From: Norana najaformis
Taxonomy: Eukaryota > Annelida > Clitellata > Crassiclitellata > Hormogastridae
DNA length: 64,000 bases
Direction: 5' to 3'
Assembly: GCA_964023275.1 (NCBI GenBank)
Contig: OZ029922.1
Span: 733,501 to 797,500, forward strand
The translations under genes and the position numbers were made by a program. Positions within the stretch are counted from its first letter, which is position 1. Each line of letters starts with the position of its first letter. The notes under the pieces were generated by a model, which was not told where the DNA came from, did not search any database, and worked only from the letters and a program-made list of their open reading frames with translations. Below, piece by piece: positions 6,390-58,718 of this stretch.

Positions 6390-9300
6390 TTAAGAAATTG
6401 GTTCGTATTCTTGGTTTTGAGATTGGTTGAGTTGATCGTAAAGAGGCATCGCTGTTATCCGCCTAGGGTCTTTTTGAAGATGTTGATAATGAGTGTCTGA
6501 CGCTGCAGCTTCTGCTGCATTTCTAATCTGCTGGACAGAAGTACTATTCGCTCTATGAATCTCGACTTCGTTACTGAGGGGTTTCTCTCTGCAGAATAAT
6601 TTGAATACACAGTAGCTTATTGATAGTTAATTCTGTTGCACGAAACAAATATGCTTAAAGCATCAGGCTAACGTATACAAGTCATGTAGGCTATACGCTG
6701 CAATATATTAAAAGACAGCATTGTTCGTACTCAAACAGTGGAAGGTAACAAATGTTTGATTAAAAACTATACCAATACTTAAATTTAGGTCACATTTATC
6801 TATGCGCAAGAGAACTGAATTTAATTTCTAGCATATAGGTGTTTATGTTTGAACAACGCATGTGTCCACTGACCGTTCATGGAATTTATATTTTATATGA
6901 ATATATAAAGTAAAAATTTTCGCTGCTTAATTTAATAGTTGTACAGATAAAACTGACCTGAGTTGTCTTCGCTGATGTACAATGACAATGATTAAAACAA
7001 TGATGACTACTGTCAGAGGAAGAATGACTCCAAGCACCAAACCAATTATGAGCGCTGTCAATGAAAACACGAATATGACATTACAATAATCCATGTGGCG
7101 GTTATCCACTGCCGATGCTACGCTGACATATGAAGTGAATGAAGAATATTGTAAATTAATCCATTAGATGTTGTATATGCGAAAGTAGGCATTGATAAAA
7201 CTTTCGTTGTGCACTGTGGCAAGTCAATAAATTAGATAGCTCACCTTCGGATTTACTTGGCATCGCTGCTACGCTTCCAACTGTCACATTGCTTGTATCT
7301 GTTGTAGGGACAGCAGTGGTAGAAGTAGTCGTAATGGTTGTCTTTGGAGTGACTAGAATGAAAATTAAACGGCAATTGAGTTAAGTATTTTAGTAAATTA
7401 ATGCTTTTCATATGCTGCATTGTAAGGACTAGGCAAGACGTATAGGACAGATTACAACCTTTGCCGACGGTCTCACATGAAGCGAGCATCGATTGATATC
7501 TTGTAAATTGTGATAACGGCGCTATAGAATAGATTGGATTGGAACGGACAGTGATAAGGATAGATAAACTTATCGGTCATGTCTTCTATCAACAAATCAG
7601 CCTCGTAGGCACCCAAAATGAATAGTTGGCTGACTGTTTTGGGCCTTTTTGTGACAAAGCTTGTAATCGCAGAAATGAGTGAGACGCGCATAAAGAATGT
7701 TAATTAGCATGAACAGTAGTCGTAGTACTCGTAAAGCCTATCCTGATCTCTTCTCTTCTCCTTACCTCTCTCGCCACTCCAATTCTACACACCATTCACC
7801 GTAACTGCCTGACCCTTGGATCTCCACCTGGAACCTTACCTAACCTTACCTACCTTACCTACCTATCGATTTATCGATTTTTTTTTATCGATTTCTGGAT
7901 AAGCTGGTTGCCGAGACTTAGCTTTCATATAGGGCACTGTAGAAGTCTCGAGATACGATATGATGCACTAGACGCTTAGTTTAAGGACTAAAGAATCTTT
8001 CGCCTGAAGTGCAATTATAGCATTAGCGATCAAACTGCCAAAAACCTCTCCATGACAATAACATTTCTCGAAAAATTCACACGAATATTAATATTCGAAA
8101 CCCTGACGTATTACCAGTGTGACGCTTTGAAGAAATATGCTTATTTTTTGAAGCAGCCTCTTTTATAGTTCTAGGCATACAATTTTATTAAACTGCGTTC
8201 TATTAAATTAATAAGTAATAACTCAGGAAATACAGAAAAAGACGACTAAATTTTAAGCCGCTGCTATGTTTGAAAGGAAAATGATGTAAAACGAAATCGT
8301 GTATGCCTACTTTTCAGACAGACAAAGTCTCTTGACACATTACAGTCGCAATCCGTCCAACTCCATGCAGGGCTTCCATTTGGATCCACACAGACACACG
8401 AGTAACTAATGTTATTCGGTTTTCCACTTGACCACGACGTGTATATAATTTCGTCACCACCGCCTATAAAGAAAACCTTACAGACTAAAAACATATGCAA
8501 TTATCTCTCGACAGTACTCACCTAAATCCTAACTGATGTCATGCAAAATCTTTACATAACTGATTATAAGAAATTATCTACTAGTGCTATACGGAAAGCA
8601 CCACGATTCACATGCTTCTATAAAAACGCCTCAGAACACGTGTACTAGGTGTGAAAGATCTTTCTTTGTGTGCAAGATGCTTGTACTGTAATGGCGAGTT
8701 TATAGAGCAACTCTTACAGAAACAAACCGATTTTTCTTGTTCATTAAATGAGTGATACCTTCTTCAAATTTCTAGTGTTTAATCACAAACACTCCTGGAC
8801 TAGCTCTCTAGTTTTTATGTGAGATTGTATGCATTAGGCGTCGTGAAGAGCGATTCATGTAATTCGCCAGAATTTCTTAGACGTTTTACTTTCTACATTC
8901 CTTTTTTCGTCCAAACCATTTTATCGTTTTAGTCTTTCAACTTACCTGTCTGTGGTATAAGGACTAATGTGAAAGAAGGATCTAGAAACTGGCATATTTA
9001 AAATATGTAAGTTTCTTTAAAATCATGGAACGAAACATCCTAAAACTATTTGTCTGAAATTCTGGCATTGAGTCAATAAACGGATTTTCTTCTTTACGCC
9101 TACTACATTTTGTCTGCTGTCGACCAGACTGAATATCATACCAAAAGATCTCCAAGACCAATCATTGTATCGAATTCCAACCCAGTACGTCAGTGACGTA
9201 TTCAGCCAGGATGTATTGAATGGAGGACTTGTATTGGTATCAGGCTCTTGTTGAAACTTTGCCAAATCACCGCCTTTGCTAATGCAACTTTCTCTGGCTT

Positions 9301-11672
9301 TATACCAAGTCAAAGTTTCATTTTCATACTTGACGTAACATCTTTCTTTATAAAGAATATTATTAGAAGAATCATCGGAACACTTGCTCTCTGCAAAACA
9401 AAATTATTTTCATACAGTTAATACGGCTAACTAATTCCCATCAACTCTTGAATGTATGTCTAAAAACCAAAAGCAATAGTTATTTTCTGGTATAATTAAG
9501 ACCATTATTGTCGCAATGACCTCAGATATAGAAATTAACAGGTGGATAATTCTTGTTACATGGGTATAATTGGTTCTAAACTATATGATTACATAATACG
9601 TAGTTCATTGCTGAGAGTCTATATTTTGTCTATGTGCACAATTAGAACTACGGTCATTTTATCAAACAGAAAATGAATCGCATTGGATTAGCGCTTGGCT
9701 GACATATTAGACCTTAGTAATTCAGTTATGTTTGAAGAAATCGTGCACTATAGTATTCTCGTCCGTCATAGTTCAATGACTTGTCTAGAGACCCGGATTG
9801 GATGTTTTTAAAGCACAAAAAGTCGGTTACCTGGTGGTTCCTGATCTATTTCTGCTCGTATTGTGTAATCATAGTGCTGTGAAGTTTTTTCCCGTAAGCC
9901 TCGGAATTGCTATCTATAACCCGGTCGTGTAGTTAATGTCATATATAGAAATGGGTAAACTGGTGAAGACTGATGCCTTCTTCTTCTTCCTTCTTCTTAC
10001 TCGGAGGTGGATGATAGCTTGTGATTAGTATAATATTTAACAACAAACTGTCAATGTCTAATAAAGAAATCGAATTACATATTCAGCGTTTATAAATGCT
10101 TCCGTAGGAGATGCATGAATAAAATTAGCTTTATATATGTATGATCACCTTCAAAGTCGCAAATATAGTGCCTGAAATCACTAGGATTTGAAGCGTACAC
10201 GATGAATTCATTTCCTTCATGTTTCAGAAGACAGTATAGCAAATAATCCCTATCTCTGGTTCCCTGATTTCCAATGCCACCTGAAAACATTCAATTTCAA
10301 AGGAACAGACCCATATAATGTCTGTGCTGTAACACAGTTTATTAAAACTTATTCTGTCCCTTCATGAAACGTGTGCGGATTGACAACTACACAGTTAATT
10401 AGTGACTGATACCATACCATTAAAAGATCAGAGATGCTTTCAATATAATACTGTACAACCCAAAGTTCCAATATTTTGTCAATAAGGCGGCTTCACAACT
10501 TTGTGGCGCTGGGACTAAATTCGCAAGGAATTCGTCAATGTTGGCGACAGTTGCATTTTAATCGTAGCTTAATATCAAAGGAAGAACATACATGTAGCAC
10601 TGCAGCTCTGCGTATTATTTCTATGTTTACTAAGGCTCAACTAAAGAATTGCTGAAACAAGGAAGAAACAGCGAAACTTATTACGTATTTGCTTTGCAAG
10701 GGTCAATGAGATTTTCTCACGCTGTTTTCAGCTTAAGCATACTTCAACTTTGACTGCTATCCTTAGAATGCTATTGAATATATGTAAGAGAATTCTGATA
10801 TGCTTAAGCAATCTTACCCTTATATTTAGTTCCGTTAACGAGAAGCCAAGTGTTATCGGGTTCCTTATACAGTTTAATATTTATATATATCATTGAACTC
10901 AGATGTGATGAACTCAGGAACTGAGCTAAAGCCGTTTGAGTATAATTGTCATTAACAACAGCAAGTGTTGAATTACTAATCGTTTTGCACCAAGACACAG
11001 CATCGCTGAAATTTCTCGTGACATATGGTATTGTAAAATATAATTCATCGATATAGGTTTCCAAGTGTGAAGATACCGACTGAATGACGACTAACATCAC
11101 TAAACAAAAATAAAATAATGCCTTTAATGTGAGTTAAAGAAGGATTTTGCAGGAATTTGACATCAAATACGCAAAGGCTTTCTCAATATCATTGTGTGAC
11201 TACTTTAGTCTAGAAAAGATGTATTTCTTTGTATATGGTGGTATTATTATTTAGCATTGGGATTAACTTTACGCTTTCCGTCAAAATTCTAAAAATTGAT
11301 ATTGGTTTGATAGGGGTGATACAATAAAGCAAGTATTTAAAGTTTCCAATCAAATCTAAGAACTAATTCTTATATGATTCGGACTATAGTTGTGAAATTG
11401 TTTTGTTGTAAATAATTAAACAAGAACTAATTGCCAATCTAATTTTGCTTTCAATTCTAATCGCAGCCGAATTCCTATGTAAGTTATTTAAAATTTTGCA
11501 TTCTGTTAGTGTTAGCAAAACGTCAGCGCCTTCGTAAGAACCAGAAAGTTACCTGTATTATAAGATTGTTTACATAGTATCTTGAATATCAATGAAAACA
11601 CAGTATCCACTGCATCTTATTTAACTTACCCATAGCAACTATAGGCGACAACGTCTGTACCATTTTCCTCAT
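6390..11672 (-). CDS. Gene B: two-CTLD type I membrane receptor with ITAM tail
   Basis: Eight exons, 5' to 3': 11672-11630, 11099-10818, 10280-10149, 9390-9142, 8463-8311, 7352-7245, 7054-6958, 6588-6390; total 1263 nt, 420 aa. Order: signal peptide (MRKMVQTLSPIVAMVMLVV), CTLD1 (SWC... YICDFEG), CTLD2 (KERCYVKYEN, WVGIRYNDWSW, CxC and DCDC, FVCLK), a short Thr-rich stalk, TM helix (GVILPLTVVIIVLIIVIV) and a 65-residue tail. The tail carries THYQHL and YDQLNQSQNQEYEPI, which fits the ITAM rule YxxL-x7-YxxI exactly. All ectodomain junctions are phase 1 and the TM-tail junction is phase 2. The position equivalent to the Ca2+/sugar-binding EPN motif reads KPN, while W-x-D is kept, so sugar binding is uncertain. 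B is the most diverged intact member of the array. ITAM function (SH2/Syk-type kinase docking) is family knowledge, not shown here. Confidence 0.85.
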
Positions 11673-12625: not shown

Positions 12626-12705
12626 CATTCATCTAGTCATTTGTCGATATATCACATTAGCGCATTATTAAACTAAGCAGTTGTAAGGTATTTAGCCAAT
12701 TTGCC

Positions 12706-15700
12706 TTAGGAAGCTTCCTTAGCATTTACATATAAGTCACTATAGCTCTGCGGGAATATAGAATGAGTGTTTCTTCGGACTGTATGAATGCCATCTCTAA
12801 CAGGATTGGCCTCTTCGTAGTTGGAATCAGAAGGCGCTGATTTTGGATCTTGTGCAAACTCTGGAGCTGAGTAAATGATTTCGGTTGGCGATTCGGTTTT
12901 GTTTACTTGATGGTTTTCATTAAGAACCACTGCGGCATAGACCTCATTGTTTACAGGATTCAGTTGTGGTTTATTTACCACAGCATAGACATCCTTTCCA
13001 CCCGATTGTGCCACTTTAGTGTGTTGAGCGTTGTCGTTTTCTTCGCTGTTGCTTTCAACTTCAAGCCTTGATTCACTGCCTCCGTTACTTCTCCTACAGG
13101 GATAAAAGTTAGTCTCAGCAATGCTTGCATCTAAAGTTATAATGAGTGGATAGAACTGAGGAGGAATGAAAGGAATTTTTGAATACTAAACCGCTCTATC
13201 TACACGACTACTCAGTATGTCAAAACCAATACATTGGAATCATAAATTCCACATTGCATGGGAACCAGCTTATTCACATGCGCTTAGTCAAAACAAAATG
13301 CGTATGGTCAGGTTAGGTTAAAAGTCAAAATTCAGAATTCCTGCTGATAGCTAGTGGGAAATTTTGATACAAGCTGATTCTAGTTTAATCTGTCACAAGG
13401 CGTCAATCGATGGTCGCTGTAAGTGAAATCGTGGTCAAAAATCGTATTCACTTGAACATGAGAGTCATAAGTTTAGACCTCAATGACATCGAACACACAG
13501 AACTGGGCAGTAGATTCCAAAGCTTTGGACCAACCACCGACAGCCCAATACTGTCGTGGTGCGAGATAGATGTAAATGTACTCGTTTTTAGAGCGACCTT
13601 TTGGCTCGACCCTGCTATAATAAATTGATCGGGTAAGATCCTTCACCACTGCTGCTCGTTCGAATGAGATACAACTTGTGCTAACGTGTCCTTTGATCGA
13701 GTTAAATAATTGCTGTTGTGAGAAGCGCGCAAGGAGCGGAAATAGGTCGCCTGATTTAAATGCAATATAGAGTGAACTATAAGACAGATTTTAAGCTGGA
13801 TTAAATGCCCGATGGAATGTAATAGACTACGCTTATAAAAATGCAATCGTAATTTTTCACCTAGAGCCTTGGAGACAGACTTTGAATAAGCCAGAAATAA
13901 GTTTAGGAAAACTTATGAATAAGTATACCCATGGAAAGAGGATATATAGTAACTCCAATACCTTTTTCTTCTCATGTAGATGATTACCAAGACAATAATT
14001 ACAACGACAAGAATGACAAAAAGACCTCCTCCGATTCCAACTCCTAAGCCAATTTTTTGTGAATCTGCAAAGAAAGTATTGTAATTGTAATTGTAATCGC
14101 GCATTTATAACGTCTCTTCAAAAAAATAAACTAAACGCTCCTGAGCTGATAACACGAAATATCGATCAAATAGAATGGTTTTCTAGGTCTTACGGTGAAA
14201 AGGCAAAAATAAGACCATGGGCCTACTTTATTATCAAGTATAGGCCTATCATCAGGATTCATCAAATGCTTATTACAATGTAGAAACTTTCAAATGCAAG
14301 ATTAGACCAAGGCCTTACTACGCCATGAAGTATATCATCAGGATTAATCACGCTATTTACTAGAAACTTTATAAATGTAACTCCATCCGCTAATTGTTGC
14401 CCTTCTTTAAACGCATTCTTTAAAATTTATAACTCTTAAATTTTGATAAGCTTATGTAGCCGCGTAGGCCCATTAGTTCGGATAGCTTTTCTTGACTGCG
14501 TATGTCTTACTTTCTTGATTTCCTGATGAAGCTGCAGGGTATTTATCTGTGGTTATGTCAGGTGCAATAGATGCAGGTCTGTTAGTAGCTGTAATAGTTG
14601 AAGTTTTTGTTGTTTGGGAAGTCATCGTTGTTGTCGTAGGTGTTGTTGTTATCACAGTTGTCGTTGGAACAACTGTTTGAAACAAATTATATTCATTTAT
14701 TCATTCGTTTAGGATCTCAATGTGCTACGCGAATATCGAAGCCAATACAAAAATTAAACATGGTACAATTTATTAAAATATTTAAAAAGAATACGGCACG
14801 GTGTTCACGATGATGGATCTGCTATTAGCACTAACAAAGTAATATTTCAGATAATTTTAATCTGTAGCAGAATGACTTTGCTTTGCCATTTCTTTAAAAA
14901 GAAACGCCTGAAAACTCACTATTTCTCACTGGCTTTCAAACATATAGATATTAAACTCTTTTCACTTGGCGACTGATTATCCCCGCCTCCAATACGCATT
15001 TCTATGTGACTTTGCGTGAGTTAAATAATAATAATGAAAGAAAAGGAAATATAAACTCCATGTACCTACTTTTAAGGCAAACAAACGGCCTTTGTACAGT
15101 GCAACCGCAATCAGTCCAACTCCAGGCAGGGCTTCCTTTTGGATCAACACATACACACGAGTAACTAGTGTTATTTGGTTTTTCATTTGACCAGGAGGTA
15201 TGTATGAGTTCTTTGCTATCGTCTACAGTGAACAACAGAATTATCACGTGATGAACATTTGATTACAGAACCTATCTAATAAAGTCCTCAAAGATAATAA
15301 AATAAAAACTTTAACAACGGAATAACAGGGGAGTAATCTAATTATATTATCACAGGCTGCAACGGTATTTCAGCCAAATGTTAACGGCTAAATGCGTTAA
15401 GTATTGGAAACGGATTTTCTTCGTCCGATTGAGATAGATAACATACCGGGAGATTTCCAAGACCAATCATTGTATCGAATTCCAACCCAGTACGTCAACG
15501 ATGTGTTCAACCAGGACGTATTGAACGGAGGAACCCAAATTTTAGGCTCGTTTAAAAATGTTGCCAAATCACCGCCTTTGTTAATGCAACTTTCTCTGGC
15601 TTTGTACCAACTCAGGCTTTCATCTTCATACTTTACGTAGCATCTTTCCTTGAAAAGGAAATTATCTGACAAGTTGCTCTGACACCTGATACCTACAGAA

Positions 15701-18700
15701 TAGAATGTGAATATAGAATATAGAATAGAATATATTTTAAACTTAATATCCGTTAATTCTGACGAGTTACCCCAACATTTTTAAATTCTTGTAAATCTTA
15801 TGGATCAAAAGTCATAGTATTCTAAACATGCAGAGTATATCTTGGACAATTTACAGCTCTACAAGAGTGCCAAGGAAGTTAAAACAAACCCCATATCTAA
15901 AATTCAAACTCTCGGAATGCAAGCAGTGGCGCAGAAAATTTCATTTTGCAAGAATACAAGCTTTCTTACCAATGCTCTCAACTCATCAAATCCTTTCCCT
16001 CTTGCAACTTCTTCTCATGCTTTTAAATCAAAATTTTAATATATCCTATTCGAAGATTCCGCATAGACTTCTCCTTTTTCACATCCTAATAGGTACATAG
16101 GTACAGCAACTCCCTAAACTACCTGCCTGTATAGCTGCCTGATCACCTAATTTTGACTCGTAAACCAAACTTTGATCCTGTGTATAGTTGTTTCGACAAA
16201 TTCATCTTGAGCGTTTGTGGATAGGCTGATTCTCTCTAATTGACTTTCATGGTGTTGAGTAAATGGAAATTGAGATCACTATAACGATGCTCTGCATAAA
16301 AGGCTTAAGCTTATGCTATTGCGATTAAAAAACACGACAGTCTATAAAGTGAGTAAATTAGAAAGCCATATACAATACCAGATTTTAACTCATAAGATTA
16401 ATGTATAAACGGATAAAAATTGTTTCAACTCCCCTTCAAAATCGCAAATAAATTCCTTAGAATGACTTGGATTTGAAGGTTCGACAAGAAACTTTGTTTT
16501 TTCGCTGTTAGGTTTCAGATAACAGTATTGTTTATATTCAATATCTCTTTTTTCCTGATTTCCCACTGAACCTAAAAAGCCAGGTATGAAATATAACTGG
16601 CAACAAGATTAAGAATATAATATAAGAATTTTCCAGCGATAATTAAACATGCATCATTGGCTATTTTATTGCCCGTTTTGTGTTTGTCTGGCAGAAGAAA
16701 TCCCTCTTCTATGGCCAGAGGTGAACTTGTTCCTTTTGCACGTTCTTCGACAATTCAACTTCGTGTTCAGTGGTTAGTCTATCCAACGACCGAATGCCTT
16801 CCTTTGGATCTGGGTATTCTTTTAACCATAAAGGCCTTACCGCCTTTCATCATCACTTTAAAACTGTTCTCTTTAGCCTGCATGGGCAGGGCTTGAAGCT
16901 TCTGTGAGCAGATATCTTGGAGGGGTGCTTTATGCGTGCACTGATTGAATGCATTTATATATCTGAACATTTACATAGCGCAGTTTTGGGAACCTCGCAA
17001 AGGCGCTGACACATGGCTATCTAACACTTCTAAAAGCATGTGTTAAGATACATTAGGCTGAGAATGTTAAGATAGCATTTTCATTGCACACTATCATATT
17101 TTAAAGAATCTGGATCCCAACAAGAATATTCCGCTGCGCGGACCTTGAGTTCAATATTGTCGTGACCCTTGTTAACTGATTCATTAAGTCGGGGGTTGAA
17201 TACTGCAGCTATCTGCTAGCAATCCAGTCAAGTTCAATAGATGTTAGATTGAATCAGACTCAACTGTGCAGCCCTAGTAGTGAACAGCAAGTCTAACTAT
17301 TCTTCGTATATTAGAATATGTGCGATATACAGTGCACTTGCTTCCTGTGTGAGAAATTATGCGATTTAAGAGTCTTCTGCTTGAGCAATCGGAGCTAATG
17401 TCATGCTTCAAAGAGTTTTGTTTTCTGTCATCGAGTCAGCAGGGTCGACAATCATTTCTTTCCTCTGTGTATTATTTGTCAAGTGCCTCGTTCCTTACAG
17501 CAATTCAAACAATTTTTTGGAACTACGTGCACGTCAAGAAACACGGGGTGGTTTATGGATCACAATGTTGCATAAACTGAAATACATAAGATACGAACTT
17601 AAAAATGACTATATAGTGTAATATACATTTAGACTAAGAAATTACAAAAAAATGCGCATAAAATCATAGACAAATCGTGAGGAAGAGAAGCTCAAAAGTT
17701 AGTACGTCGTCCTCATCATTAAAGATTGCTAAGGTTCAATGACACGCACATATATACCATATACCATCAGTATCTATAAGACTATCGTCATATAGATTCG
17801 TGTTGAATACTTGCCATTGTTCTTTACACGTACATGCTCGCAAATATTGTATCACTCATTTCTATAAGCAGCGTAAATAGTCCGATATATGTTAAAAATC
17901 ATGTTTGGTTTTCAGGAAATAATATGATGTTCTGGTTTGTGTGCATAATTAAATAAACTTACCCCGATACTGAGATCCATTCACAAGAAACCAAGTGTCG
18001 TTGGGTTCCTGATGGAGTTTTATATTTATGTACATCGATGAATTGAGTTGCGAAGTCGACAGAAACTGAGTCAATGCCAATTGAGTTTCATCGTCTCTAA
18101 CAACAACCAACGCAGAAGAATTCTTCGAACACCAGGATTTTGCATCTTCAAAGTTCCCAGTCACATTGGGTGTTTGAAAATAATATTCTCCGATGTAAGT
18201 TTCGACATACGAAGATACTTGTTCAACGGCGACAACCATCACTAAACAGAGAAAAGCACAACAAATGACAATTTTTAAAGAAGAATCTTTTACAGTCAAA
18301 ATTCTTTGTCGACTGCTACTCTAGTGTATTTATTGCATTAGCGCAATTTAATTAGCGTCCGTGCTAGGCGTTTGACCATCCACGACGCACTATGAATTCA
18401 CTGAGGCTTTGCTGAAGCTGTTATAGTGTTGTGAAAATTGAGCCTTTGGAAGTGCATGTACATGTATTCGCAGTCACAACAAACCATGGTCATATAATTT
18501 ATTCATTAGTTCAGAGTATTTATATAGCGACCTCTATGACTGGAGGATTCGAGGTTCGGATTCGAGCCTCCTCTGAAACGATTACTGCGTAGGGACTTTG
18601 AGTAAGTCATTTATTCACAATTGCTCAGAGCCATCGATTTTTGTTTAGTAATTAGATAGTGGCGCTTAATGAACGCTGAAATAAATATCTACTCAGAGGC

Positions 18701-19057
18701 AGCCCACCCCCAGCTGAAGGAAACAGTTAACAGTTTTCGAGCCTAATATTTAGGTTATATGTAACATTGCAAGATGGGTATATGTGATAACATTACAATA
18801 TTCTGATATTGGTACTCAATAAACGTCCACTTCTACCTACAATAAGTTAGCGAGTAGTCGTTAACCAGCTTTAATGATCACAAACCAAAGTAATGTCGAT
18901 TAAAAATGCATCTGTAGGTTAGGTAATATCTTCAAAACCAGGAAGTTACATTCCCCTTTAGTAGATTACGCTGCCACTCGTATATAACTAAATAGAATAT
19001 CTGTTATACAGTAATTTTCTTACCGAAAACAATTGTTATTGTGAAAATCTTGAACAT
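12706..19057 (-). CDS. Gene C: two-CTLD receptor with long tyrosine-rich tail
   Basis: Exons: 19057-19024, 18241-17963, 16571-16434, 15692-15447, 15222-15070, 14672-14511, 14064-13962, 13093-12706; 1503 nt, 500 aa. Signal peptide MFKIFTITIVFVMVVAVEQ; CTLD1 (EDAKSWC, FICDFE); CTLD2 (KERCYVKYEDES, WVGIRYNDWSW, CVCVDPKGSPAWSWTDCGC, FVCLK); Thr-rich stalk; Gly-rich start to the TM helix (GVGIGGGLFVILVVVIIVLV) and YMRRKR. The 129-residue tail has tyrosines in DVYAVV, EVYAAV, EIIYSAP, SNYEEA and SDLYVNA. YAVV-x12-YAAV resembles a loose ITAM with Val in place of Leu/Ile; YVN fits a Grb2-type SH2 site. Odd: the donor after exon 3 reads GAAG|GGGAGT, where paralogues have GT or GC. If it cannot splice, translation runs on 15 codons to a TGA, giving a soluble single-CTLD product. 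Gene E is its closest relative. Confidence 0.82.
18540..18690 (+). repeat. SINE family 1, 5'-truncated
   Basis: Matches the family from the B box (GATTCGAGCCTCCTCTGA) to the tail TAGTGGCGCTTAATGAACGC. It lies in intron 1 of gene C and has a counterpart at the equivalent place in gene E, so it predates the block duplication. Confidence 0.7.
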
Positions 19058-26200: not shown

Positions 26201-26747
26201 AGGTATCTGTCACTGATACAGATACTGATATCGATATTTCAAAAGGCTTTCACCTCTACCTCTATTAAGTTAACGAGTAGTCGTTCACCAGCTATTATGG
26301 TACAGACCAAAGCAATGCCTATTAAAGAATACATTTATAATGTAATGATTAGAGTGCTCAGCTGTCAATCGTAAGGTCGGGGATTCATATCCCTGCCAAG
26401 GCAGAAATCCGTTTCGAGATTTCGGCTCCACTTGCACTGCAAGTGAACTCAGCTATAATGAGTGCATTGACCGTACACTGTCAGTGGAAAGATCAGGCGG
26501 CGAGGGAGAGGACTGGTCATCAGTCCTCCTATACCAAGGATAAGAAAAATGAAATCGCTTACACTGTATGGTTGCCTCTCTGTCTTCTTCACTTTTTATA
26601 TTTTAGGTACATGTACTTCCATCATATCCAATAAGTTACACATTTTTTCAGTAACTTACACACCCAATCGCATATAACTGAAAAGAATATCTGTAAAACA
26701 GTAATTTCCTTACCGAAAAAAGCTGTCAGTGTCAAAGTCTTAAACAT
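20263..26747 (-). CDS. Gene D: two-CTLD receptor with ITAM tail
   Basis: Exons: 26747-26714, 25469-25191, 23758-23621, 22937-22692, 22467-22315, 21856-21719, 21392-21290, 20482-20263; 1311 nt, 436 aa. Signal peptide MFKTLTLTAFF plus a short exon 2 segment; CTLD1 almost identical to that of C, E and F; CTLD2 with CVCVDPNGSPAWSWTDCGC; Thr-rich stalk with Cys near its end (KACKSEG); TM helix (GVILPLVIITLVLALCYV); tail with VHYQHL, a canonical ITIM-type site, and YDQLNQPEPKNYELI, a canonical ITAM (x7 spacing). The donor after exon 3 is a textbook GC-AG donor (AAG|GCAAGT). Ectodomain exons resemble C and E, but TM and tail resemble B and F, pointing to mixing between ectodomain and tail modules. 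Intron 1 holds a copy of SINE family 2. Confidence 0.85.
21477..21650 (+). repeat. SINE family 1 (full-length copy)
   Basis: tRNA-like head starting ACGGTAGCTGATAGC, B-box-like GATTCGAGCC, then AAGTCCTTCAAACCCAATT and a tail ending GGCGCTTGATAAATGCAG. Sits in the stalk-TM intron of gene D; the matching intron of gene F has it too (42831). Confidence 0.75.
26335..26560 (+). repeat. SINE family 2 (tRNA-derived), gene D intron 1
   Basis: tRNA-like start AATGATTAGAGTGCTCAGC and B-box-like GGGATTCATATCC, followed by a shared body. The body contains a perfect 8-bp inverted repeat, GAGGACTG-gtcat-CAGTCCTC (26508-26528). Related copies at about 30733 and 47250. Confidence 0.65.
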
Positions 26748-44900: not shown

Positions 44901-47659
44901 GACAAGAAACTCTGGTTTCTCGCTGTTAGGTTTCAGATAACAATATTGTTTATATTCAGTGTCTCGATTTTTCTGATTTCCCAAAGAACCTAAAATCGTC
45001 AAATATCAAATATAAATGACAACAAAGTAAAAGTGAAATATGAAAAATTTCCGACAATAATGACACACACACATATATATAAGCCTTCGATCGGGACTTG
45101 GTTTCCCATTTCAGGTTTGGGTATTCGAAAAAATCTTCCTGCCGAGGTTCAGGATGTATTGGATCGAGTCGGCCTCAACTGCGCCGCCCGAGTTGTGTGC
45201 AGCAAGTCTAAATACTCTTCGTATATGATAATATATTCGATAAACATTGCACTTGGTTCCTGCGTGAGTACTAACGCGATTGAAGATTCTTGGCAATCGG
45301 AGCTAGTCGGCAATACCCACTCATCCATCAAAAAGTTGGATGTTCTGTTATCGTTTACGCTCTTTGCGTAACATTTTCAGGTGCTTCGTCCCTTACATCA
45401 ATTCGAACGCATTGGGTCGTCTATTTAAGGAATAATGCATTGAAAATATGTAAAGAACCTAAAGTTTCATGTGTTTCAGTTCAAAATACATTCTCTGTTT
45501 ACCTTCAGTTGCACCTGATTAGGTCAGTTAGATAGCCATGTGTGCAGTGCTCTTCAAAGATCTAAAATGACATGCAATGCGCCTTTGCTTTCCTATGACA
45601 CTCTATAATTCGACAATTAGCTGTAAAGTCGCAGTTTCGGAATAGGAACTGCGTGCGCGTCAAGGAGCACAGGGTGGATTATGGGTCACAATATTGCTTA
45701 AACTGAAATAAAGATGAGACGAACTTAATAACGACTATATTGTAATACACATTTCAAACAAGAAATTACAAAAAAAATATGTAAAATGTAGGCAAATCGC
45801 TAGGAGACGTTCAAAGCTTAATATGTTGTCATCCACACTGAATATCGCTAAAGTTCGATGAGAGGCATATAATGATATATCATATATGCAAAGCATCTGT
45901 AACACTGTCATGATTTAGACTGATGTTACTTCCTGCCATATTTCTTTAAAAGTATATACTCACAAAATTTGTATCAATCAATTCTACAAAGCAGCTTCAA
46001 ATAGTTCGATATACGTTAAAACTCGGGACTGTTTTTTCTGGAAAGATTAGGACGTTCTGGTTTGTGTGTATAAATAAATGAACTTACCCTGATACTGAGA
46101 TCCATTCACAAGGTACCAAGTGTTGTTGGGTTCCTGATGGAGTTTTATATTTATGTACATCGGTGAATTGAGTTGCGAAGTCGATAGAAACTGAGTCAAT
46201 GCCAATTGAGTTTTATCGTCTCTAACAACAACCAACGCAGAAGAATTTGCTGAACACCAGGATTTTGCATCTTCAAAGTTCCCAGTCACACTGGGTGTTT
46301 GGAAATAAAATTCTCCGACGTAAGTTTCGACATACGAAGATACTTGCTCAATGGCGACAACCATCACTAAACATAAAATAGCACAACAAATGCTATTTTA
46401 AAATGAATCTTGTACAGTCAGAGTTCTGTGTCCACTGCTATTCCTGAATACTAATTACATTCGTTCAATTTAATTAGCGTCTTTGCAACTATAAGGCTTA
46501 TGACTTTGACCAGATACCGCAACCTATTCACTGGAATTAGATGAAGCTGTTGCAGTTTTGCGAAAACATGAATTTTCCAATAAGCATGTATTCACAGTCG
46601 TGACAAGTTGGTCATGTAATTAATTCATTCAGAGCAATTTATATAGCGCCCTCTAATATTTCTACTCAGTGGCGCTCCCAGCCCGGCGAAAGCAAACAGT
46701 TTTCGGGCCTAATATTTAGGTTATATGTAATATTGAAAGATGGATCTGTGTGATAGTATTATACTTTCTATGGTGGTCTATCTTTCAAGATAAGTATTTA
46801 TTTCAATTCTCCATCTGCCTGGTCGTAAGCATCAGAGGCGAGGCCCATGGGATGATTAATTGCATGAAAAATTACTTGAAATTGATTTAGCAAAAATACA
46901 TAGCCCCCAATTCGACTTGAATGCTGACACAATTAATTGCCTAGTGTCAAAACCACTAATTTTTTCTACAGCCTGATACGAAGGGATATTAAGTACTGCA
47001 AAGAGACTTTTTATTAGACTATGGCGTCTCTATATATACAGAACCGCAAAATAAATATGCCAGTGGATATTAATATATGGTACTAGGTCAAGTATGGTTA
47101 GGTATCTGTCACTGATACAGATACAGATACTGATACTGATATCGATATTTCAAAAGGCTTTAACTTCTACCTCTATTAAGTTAACGAGTAGACGTTAACC
47201 AGCTATTACGGTAACAGCCCAAAGCAATGCTTATTAAAGAATACATTTATAGTGTAATGATTAGCGTGCTGAGCTGTCCGTCATAAGGTCGGGAGTTCGT
47301 ATCCCTGCCAAGGCAGAAATCTGTATCGAGATTTCGGCTCCACTTGCGCCGCTAGCGAACTCAGCTATAATGAGTACATTGACCGTACACTGTCAGCGGG
47401 AAGATCAGGCGGCGAGGGAGAGGACTGGTAATCAGTCCTCCTATACCAAGGATAAGAAAAATGAAGTCTCTTACACTGTACGGTTGACTGTCTGTCTTCT
47501 TCACTTTTTATATTTTAGGTACATGTACTTCCATCAAATCCAATAAGTTACACATCTTTTCAGTAAATTACACTGCCACTCGCATATAACTGAAAAGAAT
47601 ATCTGCAAAACAGTAATTTCCTTACCGAAAAAAGCTGTCAGTGTCAAAGTCTTAAACAT
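38996..47659 (-). CDS. Gene F: two-CTLD receptor with ITAM tail, transposon in last intron
   Basis: Exons: 47659-47626, 46366-46088, 44989-44852, 44283-44038, 43812-43660, 43215-43072, 42724-42622, 39215-38996; 1317 nt, 438 aa. Signal peptide MFKTLTLTAFF; CTLD1 (EDAKSWC, YICDFEG); CTLD2 (CVCVDPNNSPAWSWTDCDC, FVCLK); Thr-rich stalk; TM helix (GVILPLVIIVLVLAICFV); tail with VHYQHL and the ITAM YDQLNQPEPKNYELI. Block-copy partner of D. The donor after exon 3 is GC type (GCGAGT). The last intron is enlarged to 3.4 kb by a 2.6-kb DNA transposon, which ends only 70 bases from the tail exon acceptor. The transposon reads the same strand as the gene and could supply a premature poly(A) site, giving a membrane receptor without its signalling tail; that is inference. 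A second, inverted copy begins about 570 bases upstream of the start codon. Confidence 0.84.
39285..41909 (-). mobile_element. DNA transposon, copy 1, in the last intron of gene F
   Basis: Begins CACTGGCCAACA and ends TGTTGGCCAGTG (perfect 12-bp terminal inverted repeats). The subterminal regions also share inverted motifs, such as CTGATTC-AGAAAA and CAGGTCTAGTTT-CGAGATAT, within about 115 bp of each end. Paralogous empty sites (27770, 20560) show it interrupted a sequence like AAGATTATTCC; left flank GATTA and right flank AATTATTCC suggest a short ATT/ATTA-type target duplication, but its exact length is ambiguous. I do not assign a superfamily. It is near-identical to the copy at 48226-50841, so both insertions or a duplication are recent. 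Confidence 0.85.
39601..41304 (-). CDS. Transposon ORF, copy 1, split by one in-frame TAA
   Basis: An ATG at 41304 opens 442 codons to a TAA at 39976-39978. The same frame continues without interruption for 124 more codons to 39601. The N-terminus has paired CxxC motifs (Cys 16/19 and 60/63) around a FGVKLGDQDKQWAPH core, a third CxxC near residue 96 (DDCYFC), an acidic Ser-rich linker, and later KYPCFLCLWDSRAKHEHW, which looks zinc-binding. The part after the stop holds a conserved-looking HLDRFPENLGDFSEEQGERF segment. I recognise the general type as an abundant, poorly named protein family in arthropod and cnidarian genomes, probably transposon-encoded; which enzymatic class is unknown to me. 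Either the copy is dead, the stop is read through, or two products are made. Confidence 0.7.
42831..43000 (+). repeat. SINE family 1 (full-length copy), gene F
   Basis: Head GATACGGTAGCTGATTGTTG, a perfect B box GGTTCGAGCC, the AAGTCCTTCAATCACAATTG segment and a tail reading GTAGCGCATAATAAATGCAG. Best reference copy of this family in the window. Confidence 0.78.
47248..47500 (+). repeat. SINE family 2, gene F intron 1
   Basis: GTAATGATTAGCGTGCTGAG head and GGGAGTTCGTATCCCTGCC B-box region, then the shared body. Partner of the copy at 26335. Confidence 0.65.
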
Positions 47660-50841: not shown

Positions 50842-51763
50842 TTACCATTACGATTAACGTTACTTAACGTGGTGACTTCTTTTATATTTTTCGTCTACAG
50901 CCTGTTTTTCGAGTGATTAAGTAAGGTCTTGGGCGTTGTACACAAGTCTGGATGTAAACAACACTTCATAACCAGAACTTCGATCATCACATTGTTATCT
51001 TCCAATGCACTTTTTTCTTTAATGTCAAATTAACTTGTAGTCGCGATATGCTAACTTTGGAAATATGCCAGCCGAGCCCTAAGCGGGTACGTTGGCCCCT
51101 TTTCGGTTGACCTGTTGACCTCAGCGTCAATCCTTTTGCACTTGATTGTCATAAAGCTATATTGGTTTGATGTTCATGTTGACAATTCAGTAAACGACCA
51201 TTCAGTTCAATTCAAATGCAATTCAATTATTTTTGATTCTGTCATTGGATATTGAGCTAAGGAAGGAACAGTGTTTTATTTACATGACCTTAAGTTACAT
51301 TACCTTGGATTCAAATTTTACTGCTGTTTTGCTTGAAGCCTTTACATTACGTTAACGGCGACTCTTGCTTTGTGCACTGAGCTAACGCAGCTATAGAAGC
51401 CATAATATGAGAAAAGGATTTTACATTATATTACTAGGGTAATCCATTTTCTGGCCGTTTTTGTGTCGCTGTTGGGTGACCCCAGTGCACCAGCATCAAC
51501 TGTTGAACTTACACGGGTACTATGTGTTGCATGTTGTTGTTGCTTCGTTTAATGGTTTTGAAATGAAAAACAAATTTAGAAACCTACAATTTTTGAACAA
51601 CGACTTTTTAGAAAATTGCTGAGCACGAAGCCTAAGTTTTCAGACATTTTCCTTTTGTTCCCACTTCAATATTTTAAATCCTATTTTAAATCTACCTCGG
51701 GCAGTAAAATTTGACAAACATATAAGAATAATTTACTCTAATTATATAGCTTATCACACTTAC
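50842..51763. other. Non-coding stretch right of transposon copy 2
   Basis: About 0.9 kb with no recognised exon. Downstream exons of the orphan receptor exon at 51764-52028 would be expected here on the minus strand and are missing. Confidence 0.45.
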
Positions 51764-52028
51764 CGTTATACCTAGAACCATTAACAAGAAACCAATTATG
51801 CCGCAGCTGATGTTCATGAAATTTTATATTCAAGAACGCTGATGCATTCAGTTGCGGGGAAGACAGAAACTGAGTCAAAATCTGTTGAGTTCTGTTGTCT
51901 GTAACAACAGCCAACTGAGAAGAATCCTCAATACACCAAGACTTGGCAACTTCCGGGTGTCTTAAAGCAAAATTCGTTGATGCATTTCTCCGGATACAAT
52001 GACGCAGGTCCAATGACGAAACTGATTA
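51764..52028 (-). pseudogene. Orphan CTLD1 first-half exon with frameshift
   Basis: Flanked by a good acceptor (CTTCCTGTTTAG) and donor (AACG|GTAAGT) at the positions used by exon 2 of the receptors. Its 3' two thirds match: VAKSWCIEDSSQLAVV, LTQFLSSPQLNAS, WFLVNGSRYNG. The 5' third matches in another frame (CINEFCFKTPG against ETYIGEYYFQTP). The exon is 265 nt where intact paralogues have 279 or 282, so it cannot keep the phase 1-1 frame. No exon 3-8 lies downstream before the transposon. I read it as a fragment of a sixth minus-strand receptor, truncated and decayed. Confidence 0.7.
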
Positions 52029-53449: not shown

Positions 53450-56101
53450 ATGATTTCTAATTATCAATTTTTCATTTTAACTTGCGGTAGGTGACATGAA
53501 ATCAATTGTTTTAGGTTCTTTGACCTTTGGTTAAATGATGGTAAACATTTGATCTCTAATAGTCCTACCCTAACCCTAACCATAACTCTAATAGTCCAAA
53601 AAGAAGGAGAACTTCAGTATTCTACTTACGATGAAATCTTAACTGTAATAGTAATTGCAATTTTTTATAGCGCCTAATCAGACAAACCGTTCTAGATGGC
53701 CTCATATTTTAATCAACGAGCTATGAACGTTTTCAACAAATACGAACCAATATGATTGTTATTAGAAACTCTATGTAACGTCCTAATTGCTAACCAGTAT
53801 CTTTGTCTTACTTTATTGAAGTTCTCGGGGTTGCTCGAGCCAGCGATTTCTCCTGCTTCGGAGAATACTGCTTTCACCTTCCAGATGGCAACGGCTTTAA
53901 AACCCTAAGCAATGCATCAGCAGTCTGTAAGAATAGTGGATTAACGTTGTTGGAAATTTCCAGCAGCCAAGTTCAGAACAGCGTCTCACAGTTCATAAGC
54001 CAACTTCCAACACAGTCGCTTAATGGAAAAGATGTCATTCTAAACGCAGGCAGAGTAACGAAAATGTACGACTTTTACTGGATAAACGGAAAAGCTCAAT
54101 CAGGTGAATATGTTTTAACTGGATCCTCTGATGAAACGTGTTCTTTTGACTTAAGAAACAATAATCCAGATGAATAACTAGAACTGCATCCTATGACGAA
54201 GTTTCTTCTATTGACAAAGAGTAATAGCTTTTAGTAAAAAGAAGAAATAAAGTGTAATACTTAATGTTTATTGTATAATCTTTAAAAATAAATAAAAGTG
54301 GTGTATAACAGTTATTGCAATTAATATTAATATAAAAATATATTGCTAAGCATGAAACCTTGTTTCTCTTGCCATTAGGAGCAACGGTTGGTGGCGGTTC
54401 AAGCAGCGACGCTGCAGCCTATCAGAACTACGGATATCTGCATCGCACAGACAGCGCTGGTGCCATTTATCGGGATCGTCCAACGACGGACAGAGGATAC
54501 ATCTGCGAATACAACGGTATCTATCAGCTAGTGGTGCATTTATTTAGCGCCAATTCATGGTCACAATCATCAGCAATTGTGCTAAAATTATGCGCGTAAA
54601 GGATTTGCATAAATTGCATGTGTGCATTAAGGTACTTAATGTGGCGTACAATATAACGATATCTTTCAGTTATTTTTCTTTTATTCATTTAGCGCCGATC
54701 ACAAAGAATGCCTTTATTTACGCCAAAACGGTAGAAAAACAGCAAAACATATCTAGAGCAAAGTTAAAACTAAAGAAAAACATTACCGCTGCTGTGTCGA
54801 TAAAAATTTGAGTCTGCGCAGAAGTGATTAAAGTTGCTATACAGCTGGTGGTTGGCTAGATTCTACGGCTTGGTGCCAGAGACAAGTGTATGCGAACAAG
54901 TTCTCCAGGGTAGTTGCATGGAGTTGGCTGTGCGGGCTCGAACCCACAATCGTTAGTTTACAGGCCAAGCACATGATGTATCGCACATGTTTGCTGTTAC
55001 CTCTTTAAATAGGCCACTGGCAAGAGAATATTCTTGTGTGTTAATATTGTAGCTTCATCGCAAGATTGTTCATACACATACAACGGTCGATGCTACAACA
55101 GTAGCGACTCTTCAGTCGGTTGGTTCGAAGCACGTAACAGGTGCTTGCAAAGTGGTGGGGATCTAGCCATGTTTGACTACATAACCTCTGACCCCGAACT
55201 GAACGACATCGTTCGCAGCTGGACTCAGTTGACGGGTTACTACTGGATTGGGATTCGAAGTATCTGGTGGAAATGGAAAGAACTTGGTAATTCAAAGAAT
55301 TTCTCTTTCGACTTAGTCTCGCTATTAGGACATAAGTTCCATACGATCGTTAAGGCGAACATATTTACATTTCGTCATACAGCGATATTCACAGCAATTT
55401 TGAGACATCCTTAAACAGCGCTAAGACTATGCTAATTATCTGATAGAATACTTTTCAGAGATGCTAAAGGCCCCCACACAATTATTGAGAAACATAAATA
55501 TTTGAGTTATAACTGACGCATCAAGATATGAACATACATCACCTGTTCTTAAATCTTTCCATCGGCTGATTCTGCTTGTAACTTGGATGTTGCGTTAACT
55601 ATGCTCTGTCTCTCGCTGACGACTTGTTAATACCATTTACAGAAACTCTCCAGTGTTCAGAACTCTTTAGCTTGAATCATAAGTAATACATCAAGATATG
55701 AGAATACAACACCTGTACTTAAATCGTTACATTGGCTCTCTATTCGGAAAAAATCTGTTTCAAGCTGAGGCTTAAATATAGTTGATAGAATTATGAACTC
55801 TAACCAAACAGAGAACATGAAGTCAGTCCCTATTCCCCAGACATCTGTATTCAGCCAGGTCAGCTGCTTGCCTTTCTCTAGTCATACCAAAACCTAGAAC
55901 AAATATAATGAATGAATAAAAATGAATAAAAAGAATATAAATAATCTTGATAATCTGTCTTCCGCATCAGTTCGTTTGCTAAGTTTGTTGTATCACTTCG
56001 TCTCAACCCAAGCCTTCCCTCTTTCAGTTGGCATATCCTCCATAGGCTCTGTCTCTCTCTCTCTTTATTTCTCTCTTTCTGTCTGTCTGTCTGTGTGTGT
56101 T

Positions 56102-56146
<45 letters not shown>

Positions 56147-58098
56147 CTCTCTGTTTCAGCCAACTGGCTACGACTTGATTTTGATGCGCCATCGGTCGAT
56201 GTCTTGTGCATTGGACACCGGCTCTGTGGAAGTTGTTAATTATTATTAATATGTATGTCATTGATATATATTTTGAGATGTGGATGCAAAGTATACAAAC
56301 TTCGTCAGTGGACGTCCAAATGCGTACGCGAACCACTGCCTGTGTCTTGCATCAGCCTCTCAGTGGCGACAATGGATCGACTGCAGTTGCAACTCGCTTT
56401 ATCAATTCATCTGCTACAAAAGTTTGACAAACATTTGTTTTACCGATTGACTAAGAAAAACACTAATAATAGGGCGAAATGGAGGGTTTTCTACAAGTCC
56501 CGAGGGATCATAAGAAACTCTGGCAACAAATAATAGTACTAATTTTATTTCATCTTTTGCATCTTTCTTTCTCTAAAAAGGCGCTATAGAAATAGCTAGA
56601 TGAATACGTGTGTATATATATATGGTGATGTGCGATTTAGTCAGCTGGTGATGATGAGTTGTGTTATATTCCATCGAAAGATTTCTGCTCAGAAATTTCG
56701 CATTTCTATCTTAATGTGATCATGTTTTTATCTCATTTAGTTGTCCCGACAACTGCAGCTTCAACAACAACTTCAACACCAATGTCTTCTTTCATTGGTG
56801 GTTTATCATCAACAACTGCTAGTACATCTTCACCAACTACAGCTAGTACATCTTCATCAACAACTGCTAGTACACCTTCATCAACTACAGCTAGTACATC
56901 TTCATCAACTACAGCTAGTACATCTTCATCAACAACTGCTAGTACATCTTCATCAACTACAGCTAGTACATCTTCAACAACAACTGCTAGTAAACCTTCA
57001 CCTACATCATCTTCTACCATTGCTAGCACGGAACCGTTTTTAAGATCAACAGAGAACAGTCAACCTGGAACGGCTGGGGAGACAGGGCAGAGTTTCATGA
57101 CTACCCCAACCTCTGGTTCAGTGGCATCTTTGTCACGTTCTTCGACTCATGACCAGACGCCCCCTCAAAACTCCTTCTCGGTTTACACCCCTACAACGAC
57201 AAATGGTTTTGATTCCCCATCTGAAGCACCCGTTTGGTCAACCACTCAGGACAACAACAGTAACACCAGAATCGCAGATGTCTTTAGGAGGCGCTATATA
57301 AATGCACTGAATTAATTAATTAATGAAAGATTCGTTTTACGCAAAAATTCCGATCTTGCATATATTAAGCAATTCACAATTCTGGAACGTCATCAAACGA
57401 TTTCCTAGTATAATCTAATGAAATCTGTAATCTTTAATATATGATTTAATCTCGAATCTCTAATAATCTCTAATCTCTACACGTTAATCTCTAATCTGTT
57501 CTATTCTAACTTATTCTAACCTAGCCCAACATAACACTTTACTTGTGGTAACATAGACTGATTAGATGTGGCTGTTGTTATATCATGCTATGCGAGATAT
57601 CATGTGGTTAAAGACAGCAATAGAAAGCAGCATTAGATGGCATGGGATTACATAGGATAACATAAGACAGACGCTGAACATGTGGTAACGTTTTGATTCG
57701 ATTCCTTTTCTATAAACAGATGTGCATATTGGAACTGGAATTGGCATCGGAGTCTTCATCCTCGTCATCGTCTGCATCATCATCATCATCATCGTTTTGA
57801 TCAGGCGACGCAAATCGTATGTTACTCCAAATGCAATTATTTTTGATCGGCTGCTAGATAGTCATGTGCTGTGCTTTACAGAGGTGCATAAAGGCGCTAT
57901 ATTAAGTGTTCTGTTACATGCATGCAAACATAATTACATATACAATATTACATTACATACTATATTCATATATACATGTATACATTCTAGCAACGCGTAG
58001 TGCAAAGGTCAGTTCCATCTGCAAATGCTACTGAGCTATGGCATAGTTCCAACAAGACTGATGGAAGACAGACTAGATTTTATGAAAATTATTAAGCC

Positions 58099-58135
<37 letters not shown>

Positions 58136-58718
58136 GTTACTATTGTTAATATTATTATTATTATTAGTAGTAGTAGTATTCGTATTATTATTATCGTTAT
58201 CATTATCATCATTATTATTATTATATAAATTTGATCACAGTTGAGCAAAATTCAAATAAATTATTGCAGTTTATACCTGAGTTTAGTATTTAAATTAAAA
58301 CAAATTGTTTGCTTTTAAAATTGCGATTCTACGAATCAAACTTGAAGTTCTTGTACAATTTACTGTGTGACTTCACGTCATCATCTATTCTTAACCCATA
58401 ACCTTCAATCTTTCTTTCAGCTAATTACAAAGCCTGTTCTTATTGTGCGCTGCTTTTAGAAATGAAGAAGGAGAGAAGAAACCAGCAAACGACGATTACG
58501 AACATCCTAAATGTAAGAACAAAGCAGCATGCGAACACCTTGACTACGCAAAGCTCGACCTCAAGACTGAAGGCCAGGGGTTTAGTCGAAAGGACAGCGA
58601 TGGCTACTTGGACCTCGTTGAGGTTACAGTCAAGACAGAGAAAGATGGGGAAACGGGAGACTACTATGATGAGCTGACTAAACCCGAAGAGGAGCCAAGA
58701 TATATAATTAAGGGTTAA
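53450..58718 (+). CDS. Gene G: diverged two-CTLD receptor with mucin-like stalk and ITIM tail
   Basis: Exons: 53450-53486, 53822-54103, 54379-54516, 55053-55286, 56278-56421, 56741-57259, 57720-57816, 58460-58718; 1710 nt, 569 aa. Same eight-exon plan and phases as the minus-strand genes. Signal peptide MISNYQFFILTCVLGVARA; CTLD1 (NASAVCKNSG, YWING, GYICEYN); CTLD2 (NGRCYNSSDSSVGWFEARNR, YYWIGIRSIWWKW, CLC...DCSC, FICYK); a 173-residue stalk with about eight 8-residue TTASTSSS-type repeats; TM helix with Gly-rich start (GTGIGIGVFILVIVC) and RRRK; an 86-residue tail. The tail contains LDYAKL, a perfect ITIM, plus GYLDL and YYDEL spaced by 16 residues, too far for an ITAM. CTLD1 lacks the cysteine kept by B-F (YGYL for YCYL). 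The stalk donor at 57260 is chosen on phase and is the least certain junction; the donor after CTLD2 (GTTTGA) is weak. Confidence 0.8.
54900..54990 (-). repeat. Possible tRNA-like SINE fragment
   Basis: On the minus strand GATTGTGGGTTCGAGCCCGC contains a perfect B box, preceded by a degenerate A-box region (CATGTGCTTGGCC). Lies in a gene G intron. Too little sequence to assign a family. Confidence 0.4.
56050..56153. repeat. CT/TCTG microsatellite
   Basis: Long CT run with TCTG and TG interruptions in the intron between the two CTLD2 exons of gene G. Confidence 0.9.
56810..57010 (+). repeat. 24-bp coding minisatellite in gene G stalk
   Basis: About eight near-perfect units encoding (T)TAST(S/P)SS; the third bases alternate between ACAACTGCT and ACTACAGCT, suggesting 48-bp higher-order duplication. 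Encodes a dense O-glycosylation-type stalk, probably variable in length between alleles. Confidence 0.85.
58100..58226. repeat. ATT microsatellite
   Basis: About 40 ATT/ATC/AGT triplets in the TM-tail intron of gene G. Open frames across it are artefacts of composition. Confidence 0.92.

Follow-up and report, generated by a model that had tools for sequence, protein, structure and literature searches.

A probable paired-receptor-type cluster of type I receptors with two C-type lectin-like domains in the annelid Norana najaformis

The window analyzed here is a stretch of 64,000 nucleotides from the annelid Norana najaformis (positions 733501-797500 of contig OZ029922.1, C10 in a genome of 608 Mb in 17 contigs), and it carries an array of receptor genes with C-type lectin-like domains (CTLDs). 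These genes probably form an invertebrate cluster of paired-receptor type, made up of type I receptors with two CTLDs each, in which ectodomain and signaling module have separate histories and one ligand would give two outputs. Among genes C, D, E and F, the ectodomain proteins are highly similar (C-D 86%, E-F 87%, C-E 83% and D-F 85% identity; cross-class pairs 83-87%), whereas the transmembrane (TM) and tail regions are only 22% identical between two tail classes. Moreover, three groups of similar ectodomains each occur on both classes, i.e., nearly identical clustered ectodomains are joined to different tails as in paired receptors. The initial annotation of this DNA had called the ectodomain exons of C, D, E and F very similar and their tails unrelated, and this core observation is confirmed and is stronger than stated.

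Receptor genes in the window

The array genes and remnants are listed below in window positions.

Gene B, 6390..11672, minus strand: class-2 tail, Lectin_C E 9e-16; candidate exon 0 11630-11672, E1 10818-11099, E3 10149-10280, E4 9142-9390, E5 8311-8463, stalk 7245-7352, TM 6958-7054, tail 6390-6588.
Gene C, 12706..19057, minus strand: class-1 tail, Lectin_C E 5e-19; candidate exon 0 19024-19057, E1 17963-18241, E3 16434-16571 (GG donor), E4 15447-15692, E5 15070-15222, stalk 14511-14672, TM 13962-14064, tail 12706-13093.
Gene D, 20263..26747, minus strand: class-2 tail, Lectin_C E 3e-17; candidate exon 0 26714-26747, E1 25191-25469, E3 23621-23758, E4 22692-22937, E5 22315-22467, stalk 21719-21856, TM 21290-21392, tail 20263-20482.
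Remnant D', 27484..29394, minus strand: class 2; partial E5 29299-29394, stalk about 28.7-28.8 kb, TM 28284-28385, tail 27484-27690 (middle tyrosine lost).
Gene E, 31165..37790, minus strand: class-1 tail, splice model, outside the Pfam scan; candidate exon 0 37757-37790, E1 36700-36978, E3 34938-35075, E4 33969-34214, E5 33591-33743, stalk 33041-33187, TM 32479-32581, tail 31165-31546.
Gene F, 38996..47659, minus strand: class-2 tail, splice model, outside the Pfam scan, transposon in the TM-tail intron; candidate exon 0 47626-47659, E1 46088-46366, E3 44852-44989, E4 44038-44283, E5 43660-43812, stalk 43072-43215, TM 42622-42724, tail 38996-39215.
E1 exon remnant of a broken gene, 51762..51986, minus strand.

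Gene models were obtained by tblastn with exon queries and by splice modeling, according to which B, C, D, E and F are five complete genes with a reading frame open from E1 to the stop. Each consists of seven exons (E1, E3 with the first CTLD, E4, E5 with the second CTLD, stalk, TM and tail), every one of the 35 acceptors, counted from E1, reads AG, and the intron phases are 1 six times and then 2 before the tail. Upstream of all five genes lies a candidate signal exon (exon 0), 34-43 nt long, that ends in a phase-1 GT donor and is of MFK type in C-F. This gives the layout of a type I receptor, with candidate signal exon, two CTLDs, Thr-rich stalk, TM exon and tail. The signal exons were picked by conservation; that of D was picked for its likeness to C, E and F, and another candidate in D had a higher hydrophobicity score than the chosen one.

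Donors in B-F are GT except at the end of E3, where the equivalent exon end in paralogues (beside 23621, 34938, 44852 and 16434) reads GC in D, E and F and GG in C, with GT in B. This set of donors is an opportunity for studying donor decay. The initial annotation counted five intact and two broken genes; B-F are indeed open from E1 to the stop and both D' and the E1 remnant are real, but "intact" is doubtful for C because of the GG donor at its E3. The tail classes also fall out as claimed, with B, D, D' and F in one and C and E in the other. However, their proposed alternation is interrupted once, since the order in the direction of transcription is F (class 2), E (1), D' (2), D (2), C (1) and B (2).

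Separate histories of ectodomains and tails

The TM and tail proteins are 86% identical between C and E, 79% between D and F, 49-50% between B and either D or F, and 43-50% between class 2 and P0001, a related protein described below. Identity within classes is therefore 43-86% (P0001 counted in class 2; D' outside the matrix), compared with 22-25% across classes and a background of 20-23% against gene G, which flanks the array. In BLASTP, class-1 against class-2 tails gave a best E of 0.09. As cross-class identity is about that seen against G and BLASTP gave no stronger match, "unrelated" is a fair description at sequence level. A distant common origin of both classes is still conceivable, exon number and phases being equal.

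Ectodomain (E1-E5) and stalk-TM-tail module have separate histories. Separate ectodomain and tail trees, which the initial annotation had put forward as a check, are discordant, and a conversion tract is found between C and D. When informative sites are summed over alignment segments of C, D, E and F, the tail grouping CE/DF is favored by 373/375 sites in the 5' flank and by 576/582 in the region that starts with the intron behind E5 and takes in most of the TM-tail intron, a region in which the two classes align almost at random. Across the four ectodomain exons, 5 of the 19 informative sites favor CE/DF, 11 favor CD/EF (seven of them in E5) and 3 favor CF/DE, and in the ectodomain introns CE/DF is favored by 111 of 142. 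Jukes-Cantor distances follow the same borders: 0.53-0.56 between and 0.06-0.07 within classes in the 5' flank, 0.06-0.09 and 0.07-0.08 in E1, and 0.69-1.68 and 0.08-0.27 in sequence after E5, with 1.0-1.7 between classes for the TM and the introns there. Cross-class introns are alignable in the ectodomain (0.03-0.40) and near random after E5 (1.0-1.3). Thus, cross-class similarity ends sharply at the end of E5, the last lectin exon, while the 5' flank tracks tail class.

Synonymous distances (dS) in the ectodomain are 0.148-0.190 between classes and 0.125 and 0.214 within classes among C-F, and B is 0.86-1.09 from C, D, E and F alike. In a seven-sequence test with G as outgroup, two class-concordant trees received p values of 0.0001 and 0.0007 in the approximately unbiased (AU) test. 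Nonsynonymous distances (dN, 0.07-0.09) are lower than dS (0.13-0.21) in C-F, although single exons vary, and positive selection is not claimed because whole-ectodomain dN is below dS.

Gene conversion in the ectodomain exons

Genes C and D share a high-identity tract.

15065..15708, minus strand: C side of the tract, E4-E5, 93.8% over 649 aligned bases.
22310..22952, minus strand: D side of the tract, E4-E5, 93.8% over 649 aligned bases.

The C-D distance is 0.03 in the E4-E5 intron and 0.02 in E5, compared with 0.13-0.17 for within-class pairs there. The longest run shared by C and D covers 23 of 776 polymorphic sites and was matched in 0/5000 permutations, and over the 446 columns of the segment the AU test rejects the tail-class tree (p 0.038). 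This closeness across E4-E5 is best read as recent conversion. The cross-class blastn blocks of C-F also begin and end at common positions, 114-121 bp upstream of E1 and 5-6 bp downstream of E5. These edges suggest that a single block was transferred at the outset, that a class-1/class-2 pair was then duplicated and that more conversion followed. Recombination or conversion in ectodomain exons, as expected of paired receptors, is thus observed, but the ectodomain introns are mostly class-like. Homogenization is patchy and strongest in exons, since the introns before E4 clearly prefer CE/DF and the exons prefer CD/EF without rejecting CE/DF.

The array beyond the window

Together with the window, the fetched contig stretches cover 613.5-877.5 kb. 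Leftward of the window the array runs on, on the plus strand, with five genes (contig coordinates).

J, 684.6-690.3 kb, plus strand: tail loosely class 1 (resemblance by eye).
H, 692.7-702.2 kb, plus strand: class 1.
I, 704.5-710.1 kb, plus strand: E1, class-1-type TM, class-2 tail.
M, 714-717.1 kb, plus strand: class-1 stalk, TM and tail.
K, 720.7-731.0 kb, plus strand: class 1.

A genome-wide search for class-1 tails gave at least four matches, all on the contig of the window (C, E, H and M); this is a lower bound because the search missed K, which was found locally (E 5e-5). An unrooted ectodomain tree of nine sequences was built with ultrafast bootstrap from 238 columns. It is limited to E1, E4 and E5, as K yielded no E3, and it does not include G, M (for which no ectodomain was found) or I (for which E1 was the sole ectodomain exon found). 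The tree contains the groups {B,H} (support 96), {C,D,E,F} (100) and {K,P0001} (91), and each of them mixes both tail classes. Ectodomain identity is 75% in {B,H} and 60% in {K,P0001}. Trees in which the ectodomains are made to group by tail class lie 127 or 120 log-likelihood units (lnL; AU 0.001 and 3e-41) below the unconstrained one, depending on whether J, with its loose resemblance, is placed in class 1 or in class 2, and both constraints are rejected.

Pairwise alignments point to where the modules are joined. Between H and B, alignment covers the surroundings of exon 0 and the exons E1, E3, E4 and E5 and stops within 4 bp of the E5 end; H matches C in E4 and E5 and again in TM and tail. 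For I and M, the stalk and TM stretches (86-88% DNA identity) and the first part of the TM-tail intron can be aligned, yet the tail is class 2 in I and class 1 in M; judged from these alignments, a tail exchange inside this intron is probable.

At least 90 lectin-domain matches were found in the genome, with 150 of 373 candidates scored. Many further lectin-domain exon matches lie on both sides of the window at 384-945 kb of the contig. The array thus belongs to a CTLD region of far greater extent, situated close to one end of the contig.

Lectin identity and relatives elsewhere

The Pfam scan took in B, C, D, P0001 and the ectodomain of G. Above the Lectin_C cut-off of 22.6 bits, B, C and D have two stretches each (59-69 bits), P0001 has two (59 bits) and G has one (48 bits). 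Lectin_C was the sole family to pass the Pfam cut-off in these five, and no Ig-superfamily ectodomain was found in them.

When gene D was searched against 5.8 billion proteins, two matches were obtained at E 0.001, P0001 and P0002, and a profile of seven receptors again returned these two and nothing else at E 1e-10. P0001 has 445 aa on one 1573-base contig and aligns to 99% of D at about 46% identity, including the stalk, TM and class-2 tail. One continuous open reading frame (ORF) spans its signal, both CTLDs, stalk, TM and tail in the exon order of B-F. As this single ORF crosses what are eight exons here, P0001 resembles a spliced transcript from a related animal, and it looks like independent support for the gene models from another source. 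By sequence, the nearest solved structures to its second domain are mannose-receptor, CLEC4-type and collectin domains. P0002 holds E4 and then reads past the E4 donor, and is therefore more like genomic DNA. The TM and tail of class 1 (gene C residues 330-488) gave 554 candidates in the protein collection, none of them at E 0.001, and 30 pattern matches in prokaryote contigs included no relative. An AlphaFold model of P0001 with 15 exon fragments had a mean pLDDT of 45.1 and was not used. The exon-fragment alignment used was the smaller set, in which some piece ends are misplaced.

Tyrosine motifs of the two classes

Class-2 tails contain YQHL, YDQL and a last Yxx(I). The pair YxxL-x7-YxxI, which has the spacing of an immunoreceptor tyrosine-based activation motif (ITAM), is found in B, D, F and I, i.e., 4/4 intact class-2 tails in the stretch examined, and this spacing arises in 0.14-0.32% of residue shuffles of the B, D and F tails. 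An immunoreceptor tyrosine-based inhibitory motif (ITIM), VHYQHL, is present in D and F and absent from B and I. The tail of P0001 has the ITIM LNYQRL and ends in YELP, so its second ITAM half is lost, while D' has lost the first half. Class-1 tails (C, E, H, M and K; J not scored) have YAxV, (I/V)Y(S/T)xP(E/D)F and YxNA in 5/5, an ITAM in 0/5 and an ITIM in 1/5 (M). ITIM matches are weak evidence, as they appear in 6-24% of residue shuffles. By eye, the TM exons of either class have no charged residue inside the hydrophobic run, unlike vertebrate partners that couple to adaptors. Activating and inhibitory tails, which the initial annotation had drawn from the vertebrate parallel, are therefore not readable here: class 2 combines ITAM spacing with an ITIM in D and F, and C and E of class 1 have neither motif. 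ITAMs are read by Syk, and YxN is a Grb2-type site. The class-1 tyrosine set is a candidate for an undescribed docking code.

Interpretation and alternative explanations

In a paired-receptor cluster of this kind, conversion and recombination would keep the ligand-binding halves E1-E5 alike, so that duplicated receptors might see a common ligand and report it differently through their tails. Class 2 would most likely signal via a tandem-SH2 (Syk-type) kinase through YxxL-x7-YxxI, and class 1 would probably recruit another SH2 set via YAxV, Y[ST]xP[ED]F and YxN. Opposed or differently weighted outputs would then be expected in blood or epithelial cells, perhaps in microbe or self recognition. 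The gene pairs C/D and B/H are defined pairs for direct tests of shared ligand and opposite output. A more far-reaching proposal, which we put forward tentatively, is that reassortment is live: ectodomains and tyrosine tails may be swapped via breakpoints in or beside introns, with three groups each on both classes and one of them across sources, as an independent CTLD-based invention of paired receptors in which class 1 has a non-ITIM signaling grammar.

Several observations weigh against the paired-receptor interpretation. The ectodomain introns of C-F (E4-E5 intron excluded) prefer the tail-class tree by 152 lnL, the four ectodomain exons jointly prefer CD/EF but the tail-class tree survives (AU 0.105), and E1 alone resolves no topology. 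The C-D segment was picked after inspecting the data, and other long runs occur in C-E (24 sites, p 0.0004, within class), C-F (11 sites, 0.001), D-E (0.023) and E-F (0.021), though not significantly in D-F (0.081); these p values are uncorrected for six pairs. Gene C has its GG donor at E3. For I, the search of the fetched stretches found no exon between E1 and the stalk, and for M it found no ectodomain, so these gene models are incomplete and I as one gene is an assumption. In the available text of PMC2832619 an ITAM is defined as (D/E)xxYxx(L/I)x6-8Yxx(L/I), and the upstream acidic residue of this definition is absent in class 2. The ITAM pair is also not kept across sources, because the last tyrosine of P0001 lacks a hydrophobic residue at +3.

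The likeness of ectodomains across classes might come from strong purifying selection on the lectin fold alone, with fast-evolving tails, and the low dN relative to dS in C-F would fit. This explanation is highly improbable and was rejected, since between-class dS equals within-class dS, B is far off in its ectodomain despite having the tail class of D and F, and cross-class introns are alignable in the ectodomain but near random after E5. Ordinary tandem duplication with random tail turnover, by divergence or capture, would require neither selection for shared ligand binding nor paired function. CTLD expansions are common in this genome, opposite signals are not proven and class signal is retained in the ectodomain introns, all of which agree with such turnover. 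However, simple tail capture predicts one history for 5' flank and ectodomain, whereas the flank, including the candidate signal exon, tracks tail class and is far more distant between classes than E1. Capture without conversion is rejected on this ground, and with both classes in each of the three ectodomain groups and tyrosine sets conserved per class, we judge duplication with random turnover quite unlikely overall.

The two receptor types might instead have complementary roles in scavenging or adhesion, e.g., microbe uptake via YxxL endocytic motifs, with no balancing of signals. YxxL and YxN motifs serve endocytosis or Grb2-type adaptors too. For the ITAM-like motifs of CEACAM proteins, the choice between uptake and activation is left open in the available part of PMC2832619. 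The conserved class-specific tyrosines and the ITAM spacing of the B, D, F and I tails point to SH2 signaling, with which uptake is still compatible, and we consider this explanation unlikely.

Flanking genes and mobile elements

Two further genes flank the array on the plus strand.

Gene G, 53822..58718, plus strand: seven-exon plan as B-F from E1 on, one recognized CTLD, long Thr/Ser stalk, ITIM LDYAKL in the tail.
Gene A, 3' part, 1102..3417, plus strand: stalk-like exon, TM near 2277-2372, tail 3112-3417 with ITIM SIYLDV; exons read by eye.

The ITIM tails that the initial annotation gave to A and G hold, with one motif each. Within the window, no lectin exon was matched upstream of the 3' part of A.

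A stretch of 2634 bp is present twice in inverted orientation, at 39284-41916 and 48211-50842; the two copies are 99.7% identical, each has a long ORF, and one sits in the TM-tail intron of F. They are apparently a transposon of very recent date. In the first copy, the ORF matches zf-AD weakly and below the cut-off, and the transposon ORF gave no match against viral contigs. Gene K contains a long reverse-transcriptase-like ORF (by eye) between E5 and stalk (724318-727635 of the contig). At 59800-62800, repeats that are open in several frames of the ORF list are probably a minisatellite, and the last 4 kb show strong GC and AT skew.

Comparison with known systems

Lectins of the natural killer (NK) complex (Ly49, NKR-P1, CLEC) are type II proteins that have a single CTLD and whose activating forms couple to adaptors. 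Like the present genes, they are clustered CTLD receptors of two signaling types, and the comparison made by the initial annotation holds in its logic. It fails in topology and CTLD number: read from the sequence, the receptors here are type I, with an N-terminal signal-like sequence (in P0001; a candidate exon in the array), two CTLDs and a C-terminal TM and tail.

The following comparisons draw on the available parts of the cited papers. CEACAM genes of mammals and Xenopus (CEACAM1/CEACAM3 type) are likewise clustered, with similar ectodomains on ITIM or ITAM-like tails, and their high similarity is mostly confined to the ligand-domain exon and attributed to conversion or recombination (PMC2832619, PMC5112662). 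They differ in having vertebrate Ig domains and an inhibitory partner with clear ITIM or immunoreceptor tyrosine-based switch motifs, compared with an ITIM in 1/5 class-1 tails here. Siglec-11 and Siglec-16 are lectin receptors whose extracellular exons are held alike by repeated conversion (PMC5701461), but they are Ig-type lectins and one primate pair. Activating partners of the Siglec-16 kind couple to DAP12 via a charged TM residue (PMC2832619), and Xenopus has receptors with TM classes set apart by a charged motif (PMC2413239).

Among invertebrates, the fester co-receptors (FcoR) of Botryllus also form a cluster of type I receptors, whose tails carry an ITIM, a hemITAM or a core YxxI/L/V motif, and some loci encode either motif or swap motifs by splicing (PMC12065747). 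Unlike the receptors here, they have Ig and sushi ectodomains and each lies beside a fester partner; the term C-type lectin has 0 occurrences in the available text of that paper (PMC12065747). Hydractinia Alr genes are clustered receptors with ITIM/ITAM motifs reported on candidates (PMC12065747, PMC11999971), but with Ig-like domains and a suggested homotypic recognition (PMC12065747). The oyster has an ITAM-bearing Ig receptor, CgIgIT2 (PMC12065747, PMC11999971), and for tunicates type II CD94-like lectins and ITAM proteins are mentioned separately (PMC5465252). Among the titles and abstract openings listed in literature searches, no CTLD-based invertebrate paired-receptor array is described, which does not prove its absence from print.

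The array bears on whether the joining of like ectodomains to different tails is peculiar to vertebrates or a solution of general use. In Botryllus and Hydractinia, invertebrate receptors with ITIM or ITAM-type tails and Ig-based ectodomains are already known; a case built on CTLDs, in which conversion tracts can be mapped, would show the evolutionary logic recurring with unrelated folds. Collectively, the cluster is apparently convergent on the paired receptors of vertebrates, with a different kind of protein.

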